A stretch of DNA of 33,225 nucleotides, from contig NZ_JADDJF010000037.1 in the NCBI RefSeq assembly GCF_017811755.1, positions 1 through 33,225 on the forward strand, read 5' to 3'. The position numbers were made by a program, and so were the translations under genes. The notes beneath the pieces are model-generated. The model did no database searches and had not been told where the DNA came from. It was given only the letters and a program-made list of their open reading frames with translations. This DNA comes from Pararhodobacter sp. SW119 (GTDB lineage: Bacteria > Pseudomonadota > Alphaproteobacteria > Rhodobacterales > Rhodobacteraceae). Below are positions 24,354 through 29,016 of this stretch, in pieces; position 1 is the stretch's first letter, and the number at the start of each line of letters is the position of its first letter.

Positions 24354-24401
24354 TTCCCCGCGGGGAATTAAGAGACCGGAAACCCTTTCCCCGCAGGGAA
24401 A
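24354..24401. repeat. Pair of TTCCCCGCGGGGAA-type palindromes downstream of gntR
   Basis: A perfect 14-bp palindrome at 24354-24367 and a one-mismatch relative at 24386-24401 (TTTCCCCGCAGGGAAA) have centres 33 bases apart. They are a short, leaderless member of the palindrome family described for 24831, 25798 and 27096. They lie between the ends of two converging genes. Confidence 0.75.
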
Positions 24402-24446: not shown

Positions 24447-24695
24447 TCAATGCTGTCGAGGCTGCACCAGGTAGCCATTTATCGTGGACTCCCCGAGCGC
24501 CTTCATCGCCTCGAGCCGGTGGAGACCTTCCACCAGAACAAAACGTTCCCCGTCCGCGCGAACCTGGATCGGCACCGTCTGCCCGTCCTGCAGAATGCTC
24601 TCGGCGATCTGGCCAACCTTCTGTGTGTCGAGCGTCTTGGCGCGCTTTACCGGAACGTGGATCGCCTCGATCCGAAGAATCTGCGGTTTGAGCAT
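24447..24695 (-). CDS. Small ParB N-terminal-domain-like protein
   Basis: An 82-aa protein that is almost entirely a ParB/Srx-like fold: an initial IHVPVKRAK, then LDTQKVGQIAESILQDGQTVPIQV and the signature VEGLHRLEAMKALGE (residues 55-69), equivalent to the ParB motif with GxHR. There is no helix-turn-helix or dimerisation domain, so it cannot be a classical parS-binding ParB. Stand-alone ParB-fold proteins may bind nucleotides or act as nucleases or adaptors. The start at 24695 is preceded by GGGAG 7 bases away; an in-frame extension to 24809 is not needed. It lies between a palindrome pair and the first leader-bearing palindrome element, an association worth testing. Confidence 0.75.
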   Translation of the reverse strand: MLKPQILRIEAIHVPVKRAKTLDTQKVGQIAESILQDGQTVPIQVRADGERFVLVEGLHRLEAMKALGESTINGYLVQPRQH

Positions 24696-24830
24696 TCGTA
24701 TCTCCCTCGTCAGAGCATCCCCAGGGATGCTGCCCACCGCTCCGGTCGCTGCGCGCGACTGCGCGGATTGTCGTGGCGCTGCGTTGTCGCGTTGCCCACC
24801 CTTGAGCATTTAGCACCGAACGTCAGACTT

Positions 24831-24971
24831 GTCCGCACTGCCGACCCCGGGCGGCGCCCTGCGTTTCGGCATGGGGCCAGCCCGGCGCGCGCAGGCCGCT
24901 GACGTCTCTGCGGGGAACTCGGGTTAACGATGTCCGATTTCCCCGCGGGGAAATCCGCCCCCCTGCCCCGC
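24831..24971. repeat. Leader plus palindrome element, copy 1
   Basis: A 141-bp sequence repeated at 25798-25938 with no indel and about six mismatches by eye, and partly at 27096 onward. It consists of a GC-rich leader (about 24831-24904), a degenerate palindrome centred at 24910, an 18-base constant spacer containing GGTTAACGATG, and the perfect palindrome ATTTCCCCGCGGGGAAAT (24937-24954), centres 35 bases apart. A further degenerate palindrome is at 24978-24993. It sits 136 bases upstream of the ParB-like gene. Short open frames inside it (RGN/RGE/PHAETQGA in one strand) are products of the repeat. Confidence 0.85.
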
Positions 24972-25170
24972 GACTCGTTTCCCTGCGAGGGCAGGTTCGC
25001 GCCCCGCGCCGGTCAGTCGTCCGAAGCGTGACGCTCTCGACCACCGAGCCGGAGCAGCGACGTGCCCGGCCCGGCCGGACTCTCCCCGGATCGTCAATCG
25101 TTGCGGCGCAGCTTGCGCTACCTCATTGGGCGGCGAGGTTTCCTGTCGCTGGAGCCATCGAGACACCGGA

Positions 25171-25797: not shown

Positions 25798-25938
25798 GTC
25801 CGCAGTGCCGACCCCGGGCGGCGCCCTGCGTTTCGGCATGGGGCCAGCCTGGCACGCGCGGGCCGCTGACGTCGCTGCGGGGAACTCGGGTTAACGATGT
25901 CCGAATTCCCCGCGGGGAAATCCGCCCCCCTGCCCCGC
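25798..25938. repeat. Leader plus palindrome element, copy 2
   Basis: Second copy of the 141-bp element, same orientation and no indel relative to 24831-24971. The degenerate palindrome is centred at 25877 and the perfect one at 25906-25919 (centre 25912), again 35 bases apart with the same constant spacer. It lies 115 bases upstream of the DUF421 gene. Confidence 0.85.
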
Positions 25939-26059
25939 CCTGCGCTGGCCGTTCCCGCAATCATGGGGCATCCGCCCCCGCCGCGGAAACGCTTGATCTG
26001 CCGGCCGCGTTGGGCGACCCTGCCGTCAGCGGCAGGCGGGTTGGGCAAGGTTGGTGCGC

Positions 26060-26989
26060 ATGCAACAGCAGATTGATCACCGCGACTGGCTCGCCGCCCT
26101 GCCGCCTGCGCAGCGCGCCGATCTGGCCCGGCGCTCGGATGCGGCGGGGTTGCGGCGTCTGGCCGCGCATCTGGGATTGATCCTGCTCTGCGGCGGGCTG
26201 ATCGCGGCGCAGCTGCCGGGGTGGTGGCTTCTGCTGCCCGTGCAGGGCGTGCTGCTGGTCTTCCTGTTCACCCTGGCGCATGAGGCAACGCATCGCACGC
26301 CATTCGCCTCGGACGGGCTGAACAGCGCGGCCGGGCACGTCGCCGGGTTGGTGCTGGTACTGCCCTTCCAGTATTTTCGGTATCTGCACTTCGCCCATCA
26401 CCGCTGGACGAACATTCCCGGCCGTGACCCCGAACTGGCGCAACCCCGGCCCCGGACGGCGGCGGAATGGGCGCTGCATGTCTCGGGCCTGCCCTACTGG
26501 TGGGCGGGCCTGCGGCTGATGGCGCGGCTGGTGGCCGGGCGGGCCGACGATGACTTCCTGCCCGCCGCGGCGCGGCCCCGTGTGGTCGCCGAGGCGCGGG
26601 CGATGGCGCTGGTCTATGTCCTCCTCGCGCTGAGCCTGATCTGGTCGCCGCTGATCGTCTGGGTCTGGCTGGTGCCGGTGCTGCTGGGCCAGCCGGTGCT
26701 GCGGCTCTATCTGCTGGCCGAGCATGGCGACTGCCCGCATGTCGCCGACATGTTCCTCAACACCCGCACCACCTTCACCAGCCGCGCGGTGCGGTTTCTG
26801 GCCTGGAACATGCCCTATCACACCGAGCATCACGTCGCCCCCACGGTGCCCTTCCACCGCCTGCCCGATCTGCACCTGCTGATGCGTGACCGGCTGGGGG
26901 TGACGGCCGCGGGCTATGCGGCGTTCAACCGCGCCTATCTGGCCCGGCGATGGCCGGGGCGGGCGGCGGCGGGCACCGATCCGGACTGA
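26060..26989 (+). CDS. Membrane fatty acid desaturase
   Basis: Di-iron integral membrane desaturase or related hydroxylase (309 aa). All three histidine boxes are present: HEATH (74-78), HFAHH (110-114) and HTEHH (254-258). Hydrophobic pairs occur around residues 36-75, 92-108 and 190-225. The ATG at 26060 is preferred over in-frame TTG 26051 and GTG 26054 because AAGG is 9 bases upstream of the ATG but abuts the others. The gene stands alone, with repeat elements on both sides. Its lipid substrate and regioselectivity cannot be read from sequence; beta-carotene-type or sphingolipid hydroxylases of the same superfamily remain possible. Confidence 0.88.
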   Translation: MQQQIDHRDWLAALPPAQRADLARRSDAAGLRRLAAHLGLILLCGGLIAAQLPGWWLLLPVQGVLLVFLFTLAHEATHRTPFASDGLNSAAGHVAGLVLVLPFQYFRYLHFAHHRWTNIPGRDPELAQPRPRTAAEWALHVSGLPYWWAGLRLMARLVAGRADDDFLPAAARPRVVAEARAMALVYVLLALSLIWSPLIVWVWLVPVLLGQPVLRLYLLAEHGDCPHVADMFLNTRTTFTSRAVRFLAWNMPYHTEHHVAPTVPFHRLPDLHLLMRDRLGVTAAGYAAFNRAYLARRWPGRAAAGTDPD

Positions 26990-27095
26990 TCCGGTCGGAC
27001 AACTGCAATCTCCGCCGTGCCGACCTTCTGCTCTTGCAGGTTTCCGCGGGTGGGGGCGCTTGCGAACGCCCCAATGCGACGGGGTCCCGCGTGGG

Positions 27096-27407
27096 GGCGC
27101 CCTGCGTTCCGGCATGGGGCCAGCCCGGCGTGCGCACACGACTTGCGTCCCCGCGGGGAACGCAGGTTAACGATGTCCGAATTCCCCGCGGGGAATTACT
27201 GGATCTGAATTCCATTTCCCCGCGGGGAACTCCACCGACCCGTGGCGCCATTTCCCCTCGGAAAACCTCCCGACCGGAGGCATCGTTTCCCCGCGGGAGT
27301 CACCCGGCCGCCCGGCCCCATTTCCCCGCGGGGAAATGCCCCGACCGTGGCGCCCTGTCCCTCGGCGATGTCCACGGCCGCCCGCGCGATTTCCCCGCGG
27401 GGAAATC
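27096..27407. repeat. Leader plus array of eight regularly spaced palindromes, copy 3
   Basis: The leader matches copies 1 and 2 from 27096 on with no net indel. It is followed by palindromes centred at about 27153, 27188, 27222, 27258, 27293, 27328, 27362 and 27397, a steady 34-36-base pitch. Perfect members are 27180-27197, 27216-27229, 27319-27338 and 27388-27407; 27148-27159 is perfect over 12 bases; those near 27258, 27293 and 27362 are degenerate. Spacers of about 15-20 bases differ from one another, except the first, which is shared with copies 1 and 2. The array fills most of the 550-base gap between the desaturase and M20 genes. There is no gene in this gap. Confidence 0.85.
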
Positions 27408-27539: not shown

Positions 27540-28682
27540 ATGCTGGGCAATGCCGACATCATCCGCCTGACCGAGTTCCGCCGCGCGCTGCACCGCCGCC
27601 CCGAGCTTTCGGGCGAGGAGGCCGAAACCGCCCGCGCCGTCGCCGCCTTCCTGCGCCCGACCGGACCCGACGCGGTGGTCGCCGGGCTGGGCGGCCACGG
27701 CCTCGCGGTGATCTACGACAGCGGCCAGCCCGGCCCGACAGTGATGATCCGCGCCGAACTCGACGCCCTGCCGATCGAGGAGACCGGCACCCCCGCGCAC
27801 CGGTCGCAGGTGCCGGGCAAGGCGCATCTCTGCGGCCATGACGGCCACGCGACGATCCTGGCGGGCGTGGGCATGGTCCTGGGCCGCGCCCGCCCCGCCG
27901 CCGGGCGCGCGATCCTGCTCTTCCAGCCGGCCGAGGAGGACGGCTCGGGCGCGGCGGCGGTGATCGCCGATCCGCGCTTTGCCCCGCTGGCGCCGGACTG
28001 GGTCTTTGCGCTGCACAACATGCCGGGCCTGCCGCGCGGCGCCGTCGCGCTGGCCCCCGGCCCGGCGAACTGCGCCTCGCTGGGCTTGCGCGTCGTGCTG
28101 ACCGGCCGCACCGCGCATGCCTCGAACCCCGAAACCGGCGTCGCCCCCACCGCCTGCATCGCCGCGCTGCTCTCCGACCTGCCGCGCCTCGCCCCGGCAT
28201 CGGGCGACGACTTCCGCCTGGTGACGCTTTGCCACACCCGCATCGGCGCGCCCGCCTTCGGCATCTCCCCGGGCGAGGCCGAACTCTGGCTGACCCTGCG
28301 CACCGTCACCGACGCCGCCCTGACCACGCTCGAGGCCGATCTGCGCGCCACCGTGCAGCGCCTCGCCGCGCAGGACGGGCTTGGCTGCGCCTTCACCGTC
28401 CACGACCATTTCCAAGCCTGCAGCAACGACCCCGACGCGACCCGCCACCTGGCCAATGCCGCCCGCGCCGCTGGCCTGCCCCCCGCCGCCTTCGACCACC
28501 CGATGCGCGCCTCCGAGGATTTCGGCCGCTTCGGCCGCCACGGCCGCTCCGCGATGGCGCTGCTGGGCGCCGGCACCGACCTGCCGATGCTGCACAACCC
28601 CGACTACGACTTCCCCGACGACCTGATCGCCCCCGGCGTCGCGCTGTTCACCCAGGTCTTGGACGAAACGCTGGGCCGCTGA
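27540..28682 (+). CDS. M20 family amidohydrolase (hippurate hydrolase/aminoacylase-like)
   Basis: Metal-dependent cytosolic amidohydrolase (380 aa) that cleaves N-acyl or amide bonds. Family features: RRALHRRPELSGEE near the N-terminus, RAELDALPIEE (71-81), metal site CGHDGH (98-103), PAEEDGSGA (130-138), ALHNMPG (157-163), dimerisation-domain TGRTAHASNP (188-197) and a C-terminal LHNPDYDFPDDLI carrying a metal His. The ATG at 27540 follows AGGAGG by 5 bases; the frame stays open upstream through the palindrome array, which is not coding. It is complete and alone between the array and tRNA-Phe. The natural substrate is unknown. Confidence 0.92.
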   Translation: MLGNADIIRLTEFRRALHRRPELSGEEAETARAVAAFLRPTGPDAVVAGLGGHGLAVIYDSGQPGPTVMIRAELDALPIEETGTPAHRSQVPGKAHLCGHDGHATILAGVGMVLGRARPAAGRAILLFQPAEEDGSGAAAVIADPRFAPLAPDWVFALHNMPGLPRGAVALAPGPANCASLGLRVVLTGRTAHASNPETGVAPTACIAALLSDLPRLAPASGDDFRLVTLCHTRIGAPAFGISPGEAELWLTLRTVTDAALTTLEADLRATVQRLAAQDGLGCAFTVHDHFQACSNDPDATRHLANAARAAGLPPAAFDHPMRASEDFGRFGRHGRSAMALLGAGTDLPMLHNPDYDFPDDLIAPGVALFTQVLDETLGR

Positions 28683-28832: not shown

Positions 28833-28907
28833 GCCCGGGTAGCTCAGGGGTAGAGCAGTGGACTGAAAATCCTCGTGTCGGTGGTTCGATTCCGCCCCCG
28901 GGCACCA
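28833..28907 (+). tRNA. tRNA-Phe (anticodon GAA)
   Basis: 75-nt cloverleaf with acceptor stem GCCCGGG/CCCGGGC, T-loop TTCGATT, encoded CCA and anticodon loop CTGAAAA (GAA, phenylalanine). The anticodon stem has a U-U opposition at 28:42, otherwise all stems pair. The DNA changes character immediately after its 3' end, so it is a likely integration site. Confidence 0.97.
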
Positions 28908-28982: not shown

Positions 28983-29016
28983 TTTGCTACAGTTTTTGCT
29001 ACAGCTTTTGCTACAT
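28983..29016. repeat. Three tandem ~12-bp repeats (TTTTGCTACAG) near the island junction
   Basis: The unit TTTGCTACAG occurs as TTTGCTACAG, TTTTTGCTACAG and CTTTTGCTACAT, 76 bases after the end of tRNA-Phe. Short direct repeats next to a tRNA attachment site resemble arm-type binding sites of tyrosine integrases; this reading is inferred. Confidence 0.55.

Follow-up and report, generated by a model that had tools for sequence, protein, structure and literature searches.

Palindrome arrays dispersed in the genome of Pararhodobacter sp. SW119 as predicted parS-type sites of a ParB without ParA

REP/BIME repeats are short palindromes clustered in intergenic DNA. CTP-dependent clamp loading has been described for ParB and for Noc of Bacillus subtilis, a protein with a membrane-binding N-terminal amphipathic helix and with sites that are rare around the terminus. 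Orphan ParBs are common, Noc being the studied case (PMC12704722, in part), and the consensus of the Noc sites (NBS) is given as TATTTCCC-GGGAAATA (PMC7383237, in part). For repABC the parS consensus is GTTNNNNGCNNNNAAC; parS sites remote from repABC are few according to the portion of the source drawn on here, which reports no further long multi-parS locus in Rhodobacterales (PMC9040568). We use the plasmid type names of PMC9025767 (in part), among them the DnaA-like plasmids of Rhodobacterales with their ParA-ParB-parS system.

The palindromes described here, which share the 14-bp core TTCCCCGCGGGGAA, resemble each of these systems in some respects. As in the DnaA-like plasmids, the same class of palindrome lies beside parB, and the ParB is homologous (up to 60% identity) with the same CTP motifs; but the contig of the ParB in question (solo ParB below) has neither a ParA nor a DnaA-like gene, the protein has no N-terminal extension, its gene is surrounded by ordinary metabolic genes, and dozens of the sites are remote from parB. 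As with Noc, a ParB relative without ParA goes with dispersed sites, and the half-site ATTTCCC/GGGAAAT is common to both; however, our 18-bp site has CGCG between the halves and so departs from the NBS consensus, the sites are clustered at a pitch of ∼35 bp, and the nearest relatives of the protein are plasmid ParBs. The NCBIfam Noc model gives 24.1 bits against a cut-off of 315, and the likeness to Noc is one of analogy, not of membership. With repABC parS, including the 3parS locus of pAMI4, our sites share the architecture TTNNNNGCNNNNAA and the occurrence of several copies in a non-coding locus; 3parS, however, has three copies on its own megaplasmid, whereas here 15 stretches of one genome are involved (PMC9040568, in part). 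The inner 14 bases of our sites fit GTTNNNNGCNNNNAAC, but T takes the outer position ahead of the core in 56 of 67 copies and G in one; the full consensus is found in the plasmid sites of three other genomes (G434, G435 and G437). REP/BIME repeats are alike in being short palindromes clustered in intergenic DNA and unlike in that a site of our type goes with a ParB and has clade-specific variants.

The first-pass annotation of this DNA knew of no described family of this kind. That stands for dispersed chromosomal sites with a ParA-less ParB, of which we found no report in the open-licence PMC literature, and it does not stand for the site architecture, which is that of repABC GTTNNNNGCNNNNAAC (PMC9040568, in part). 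What appears new is thus the spread of parS-type sites over a chromosome together with a ParA-less ParB; such architecture and orphan ParBs were known before. In open-licence papers TTCCCCGCGGGGAA was met once, in a paper on maize, and CCCCGCGGGGA in 12 papers under eukaryotic or viral titles.

The window is the whole stretch of 33,225 nucleotides that was analysed (contig C124 of the 4.51-Mb genome, assembled in 192 contigs). Its features around the array are as follows.

24354..24400, no strand: two-site cluster, pitch 33; the second site has 1 mismatch
24447..24809, minus strand: 120-aa protein with weak likeness to the ParB N-terminal domain, between two site clusters
24840..24903, plus strand: 'leader' repeat, first copy (repeat search)
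24904..24952, no strand: two-site cluster, 3 and 0 mismatches, pitch 35
25807..25870, plus strand: 'leader' repeat, second copy, 96% to the first copy
25871..25919, no strand: two-site cluster, 3 and 0 mismatches, pitch 35
26051..26989, plus strand: fatty acid desaturase, upstream neighbour of the array (domain scan)
27093..27146, plus strand: 'leader' repeat, third copy, upstream of the reported array, 86% to 24840-24960
27147..27404, no strand: reported palindrome array, predicted ParB/parS-type sites (14-mer matching)
27540..28682, plus strand: M20 family peptidase, downstream neighbour of the array (domain scan)

Matches to TTCCCCGCGGGGAA in the array start at 27147, 27182, 27216, 27252, 27287, 27322 and 27391, with 1, 0, 0, 3, 3, 0 and 0 mismatches, respectively, and a decayed eighth palindrome with 5 mismatches was read by eye at 27356. 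These starts reproduce the eight palindromes and the spacings of 35, 34, 36, 35, 35, 34 and 35 bases reported before, the remnant at 27356 included; the remnant is still on pitch, as the remark that pitch survives decay had it, and the spacers of the array are indeed not alike. The array is therefore real, but three further clusters of the window (at 24354, 24904 and 25871) had been overlooked; a 4-mismatch site at 24979 follows the second of these. The expected excess over shuffled sequence was found as well: the window holds 15 matches at up to 3 mismatches against 4.0 expected (none of 100 shuffles reached as many), and the genome holds 67 exact copies against 0 of the reversed control. Together with the regular pitch, this rules out a chance origin of the palindromes.

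The leader that was said to head the array is a local repeat of ∼105 bp (24840-24960, 25807-25927 and 27093-27195) that stands ahead of three of the window's four clusters. Among the 40 of 126 candidates scored in a genome search there was no near-full copy outside the window, only short partial matches. Conservation of the leader thus holds locally, and a leader-headed plan as a general rule is rejected, the full leader being confined to the window. The 120-aa protein matches the NCBIfam models for Noc (E 3.8e-6) and RepB (E 6.3e-6), all under the curated cut-offs, and has no Pfam match; a relic is one possibility for it, a modulator of the ParB another. A short tandem repeat, TTTGCTACAGCT (2.8 copies, 28983-29015), lies just past the tRNA gene at 28833-28904.

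All 67 exact copies in the genome fall in 15 stretches (the window and 14 others) on 14 contigs. Most are clustered; the exceptions are a lone copy on contig C116, a few singles near clusters and three copies on contig C107, spaced 0.5-1.1 kb apart on either side of the solo parB. The palindrome core proposed at first is real, but the conserved unit is longer: 18 bp, ATTTCCCCGCGGGGAAAT, with sharp edges and each outer letter present in 53-56 of the 67 copies. The pitch holds throughout the genome, with 41 of 48 spacings at 33-37 bp (spacings up to 50 bp, sites with up to 3 mismatches, 15 stretches). As a universal rule, a strict 35-bp pitch is rejected: in relatives it is looser, 26-40 bp, with 28 common in Loktanella, figures from a scan that admitted only 28-40 bp for a matched pair.

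Taking all arrays together, spacers are closer to those of their own array than to those of others (mean score 0.065 vs -0.110, 61 spacers; 0 of 2000 label shuffles), also when the most repetitive arrays are left out (0.002 vs -0.104, 47 spacers; 0 of 2000 shuffles), which argues that the arrays of this genome grew at least partly by tandem duplication. Some arrays show higher-order tandem units, of about 124 bp (locus L059) and 119 bp (L047). After duplication the spacers drifted while the palindromes did not. The five measured spacers of the window array have a mean of -0.079 among themselves and -0.100 against other arrays, and no tandem-copy signal is seen in these five. The same comparison bears on the idea, also raised in the first-pass annotation, of a CRISPR-like array or a structured RNA. 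The one-sided leader-like repeat, the regular repeats and the variable spacers would fit it, the window's spacers being not alike; genome-wide, however, the CRISPR likeness fails on the likeness of spacers within arrays (the window's own five are uninformative here), the full leader is found only in the window, no cas genes are among the scanned neighbours of the arrays, and at gathering level Rfam has nothing besides two tRNAs. We regard either form of this idea as highly improbable.

A candidate for the protein that binds the palindromes is encoded on contig C107:

33329-34294 of contig C107, minus strand: solo ParB, 321 aa (Pfam ParB_N, E 4.6e-7)

One site lies about 10 bp past the stop of this gene, one upstream of it and a third ∼0.5 kb further. 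The gene is accompanied by genes for a hydroxyacid dehydrogenase, a short-chain dehydrogenase, a glutathione transferase and a DUF1801 protein; C107 (55 kb) returned neither a ParA nor a DnaA-like match. The CTP motifs GxRR and EN..R are invariant in all 58 rows of our ParB alignment, the solo ParB among them. It is without the N-terminal extension of its ParA-linked relatives: extension and ParA are both present in 41 out of 41 compared relatives (two of which repeat others; ParA at least 68% identical to the query), and the motif RRGPMA of the extension is kept in all 41 rows (one reads RRSPMA). In the stretches that carry the ParB of our genome and of three other genomes, G075, G104 and G287, none of the frames contains RRGPMA (the start codons of the truncated ParBs of G104 and G287 are uncertain).

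The genome has three ParB-family matches, the third weaker than the two listed, which are the solo ParB and a 35% relative on contig C90; neither of these two is a canonical plasmid ParB of this clade. Other candidates for the cognate protein were rejected: the C90 ParB, the palindrome of which is GTTTCGCGCGCGAAAC; the repABC RepB, whose RepB-domain matches on contig C79 have no such sites around them; and the true chromosomal ParB (contig C127, beside rsmG and parA), which has no such sites within 1.5 kb. The C90 protein (L171) is a second plasmid-type ParB, with five copies of its different palindrome nearby.

In other genomes the same palindrome adjoins partition genes. Relatives of the solo ParB were found in 195 of 394 family genomes (E ≤ 1e-10) and in 531 of 72,556 plasmid records. 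Three annotated plasmids have the order DnaA-like gene, ParA-type ATPase, ParB; a fourth begins with a gene labelled hypothetical that nevertheless matches the DnaA-like query. Judged by these genes, the relatives of the solo ParB are the partition proteins of DnaA-like plasmids. 50 out of 58 ParB rows have at least one perfect palindrome of at least 14 bp with a CCGCGG centre near the gene (in stretches of 2.5-16 kb), and the main half-site variants TTCCCC, GTCCCC, TTACCC and TTATCC account for 20, 21, 4 and 4 rows, with one tie. Mapped on the ParB tree, these four variants require 6 changes, whereas shuffled labels need 21.9 on average (0 of 200 shuffles). Because the palindrome flanks parB of DnaA-like plasmids and its variants follow the ParB tree, we take it for a parS-type partition site, and our palindromes are very probably sites of this ParB family, a prediction made from sequence. 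The first-pass reading of a dyad-binding protein thereby gains indirect support, since the palindrome is of parS type and a gene of the same family is flanked by sites on C107.

In the tree the solo ParB falls among plasmid ParBs with a TTCCCC site. The G075 ParB is placed beside those of G178 and G064, with the same core and mostly CC..GG flanks, and the G104 ParB among GTCCCC plasmids; the G287 ParB sits on a long branch of uncertain position, which does not fit its site class. On the best 58-row tree, truncation corresponds to four changes for the four ParBs concerned, at least two of them forced by well-supported branches. A sister group of DnaA-like plasmids (L198-L203) uses CTTATCCGCGGATAAG and TTACCCGCGGGTAA sites and offers a natural series for changes of ParB specificity.

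Sites were then counted in the 394 genomes of the family sample with the 12-mer TCCCCGCGGGGA (reversed control mostly 0-3, at most 8). It occurs in 120 of the 394, and reaches 15 copies or more in G104 (90), our genome (70), G287 (66), G075 (34), G129 (18), G122 (17), G018 (16), G078 (16) and G306 (15). According to a table compiled by hand, 58 of the 62 genomes with at least 3 copies have a ParB match, vs 195 of 394 overall (Fisher p 1e-15, relatedness uncorrected), as do nine out of nine with at least 15 copies (Fisher p 0.0016, relatedness uncorrected); the four of the 62 without a match are G035, G143, G250 and G358. The four site-richest genomes of the 394 (90, 70, 66 and 34 copies) are the four where a truncated ParB was found, the only ones from which it is known. 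No ParA match was seen in the stretch around the truncated ParB in our genome, G075 and G104; in G287 its neighbour is a distant ParA-like gene (29%) that also matches MerR weakly. The canonical-operon genomes examined for high counts (G129, G122, G018, G078, G306 and G068) have 10-18 sites, many of them near parB. One further genome, G317, has a ParA-less ParB of a distant branch, without such sites nearby.

A species collection was scanned for pairs of exact sites separated by 14-26 bases, which gave 16 stretches, nearly all labelled as Rhodobacterales and two as Rhizobium/Rhizobiales. Outside the 394 genomes, exact sites number 63 in Loktanella sp. RGIG994, 23 in Loktanella B1Sed10_179 and 15 in an uncultured Litoreibacter. 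The last has a canonical operon, and in all three the only ParB found intact is a canonical plasmid ParB with nearby GG..CC-flanked sites; the dispersed Loktanella sites that were read have mostly CC..GG flanks. An intact solo ParB was not found in RGIG994 or B1Sed10_179 (both are metagenome drafts, so the gene could be missing), and as they stand the two Loktanella genomes count against a strict link with the sites. RGIG994 has a broken ParB copy (L140, G434:C12:25654-26484) with internal stops and one palindrome inside.

One array illustrates how a site may begin. The gene betC (choline sulfatase), present in 16 of 18 genomes of the genus, ends in RFPRGE-stop, and in our genome the string encoding this end is the palindrome (L048 4854-5145, contig C24). 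In the nearest congeners with betB in the stretch (G014, G004 and G008, 87-89% identity) the 14-mer is off by two or three bases, while some more distant congeners are one base away. From the stop to a conserved betB word there are 28-32 bases in G014, G004 and G008 vs 307 in our genome; the extra ∼275 bp holds seven sites (one with 4 mismatches) and is missing from these three near congeners. This shows that a palindrome site can arise inside a gene, and it qualifies the earlier statement that the palindromes are not coding, which does not extend to all sites. At this end of betC, two Loktanella genomes carry 2-3 sites, counting the one in betC itself; their pitch and flanking letters are different. 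Because flanks and pitch differ, separate growth from one coding seed is favoured, and shared descent of that array is the less likely alternative.

The distribution of the sites is patchy, with 0 exact copies in 17 congeners. Patchiness, the higher-order tandem units and the broken ParB of a site-rich Loktanella would suit relics of an integrated DnaA-like plasmid, or repeats that spread like BIME/REP elements without host function. But palindromes have stayed intact while spacers drifted, the copies are spread over 14 contigs with no plasmid genes among the scanned neighbours, and arrays occur at the same betC end in Loktanella, which together make such an origin doubtful.

The scanned neighbours of the arrays are metabolic and transport genes. 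This would agree with the solo ParB being a transcriptional or silencing regulator like KorB or VirB, for which the arrays would be long-range operators of the neighbouring genes, and the part of PMC12704722 used here names relatives of ParB that have a regulatory role. By our own gene calling, however, several arrays lie between convergent genes (L047, L055, L056 and L059), and the scanned neighbours have no obvious pathway in common; we consider regulation unlikely, if somewhat less so than a relic. On contig C182 a seven-site array lies beside a 1354-aa frame (L059 5248-9312, minus strand) with caspase-like domain, M15 peptidase and GDSL lipase matches.

Some arrays may lie towards the origin. 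The array on C127 is 41 kb from the true chromosomal parB of our genome, which adjoins parA and rsmG. In G075, where the main chromosome is one contig, the region matching the C127 parB is at ∼3.515 Mb; gene order between C127 and G075 is kept only near the origin (one contig compared). We sampled G075 by 60 grid stretches and 12 fill-ins (1.44 of 4.15 Mb), the fill-ins being picked once the grid was known, in order to locate the origin. In the grid stretches by themselves, sites do not lean significantly towards the origin (mean distance 680 vs 1043 kb; 1395 of 20000 permutations); grid and fill-ins together give 398 vs 885 kb (98 of 20000 permutations, with fill-ins picked after the grid). 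19 of the 34 copies of G075 were placed, five of them from a stretch chosen for holding an array. Such a lean, if real, would not be expected if the sites were copies of a plasmid centromere in the chromosome, there to titrate incoming DnaA-like plasmids of their own compatibility class or to mis-partition them. The sites are identical to those of plasmid operons in related genera, and the matches listed for our genome contain no canonical plasmid ParB of the clade, as plasmid interference would have it; decoys, however, need no solo ParB, yet the four richest of the 394 genomes have one. Interference, too, seems improbable to us, on a par with a relic.

Our main reading (probability roughly 0.7) is that the window array consists of parS-type sites for the solo ParB of C107, multiplied in the genome and predicted to be loading stations for coating of the chromosome. 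ParB dimers would load at each palindrome, bind CTP, close into a clamp and slide off; CTP-dependent clamp loading is the natural inference because the GxRR and EN..R motifs are invariant. Each cluster would then be a loading station coating the adjacent chromosome, with clustering raising the loading rate. Since 33-37 bp are not whole helical turns, we infer that room for neighbouring dimers is a likelier reason for the pitch than phasing. With ParA and the N-terminal extension gone, a role in the usual partition is unlikely. ParB assemblies may instead serve to mark the chromosome or to organise it, in the manner of Noc in Bacillus. This landmark role, argued by analogy with Noc, is put forward tentatively, and it is favoured over regulation, plasmid interference and a relic. 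Several of the arrays would have grown by tandem duplication that kept the 18-bp palindrome while spacers drifted.

It is conceivable, though we hold it as a conjecture, that plasmid ParBs were captured by Rhodobacterales chromosomes more than once, lost ParA together with the N-terminal extension and acquired 34-90 sites across the host genome, giving an independent Noc-like system with arrays that grow by tandem duplication from seeds arising in coding sequence (such as the RFPRGE end of betC), even in the same gene in two genera. Noc, the studied ParB that turned into a chromosome-wide factor, represents one Firmicutes lineage; if the conjecture is true, the Rhodobacterales would hold repeated conversions of a plasmid partition protein into such a factor. 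Array-less congeners and plasmid relatives would then make the steps from centromere to chromosomal landmark directly testable, and intergenic palindrome arrays that can be mistaken for CRISPR or REP elements would be accounted for.
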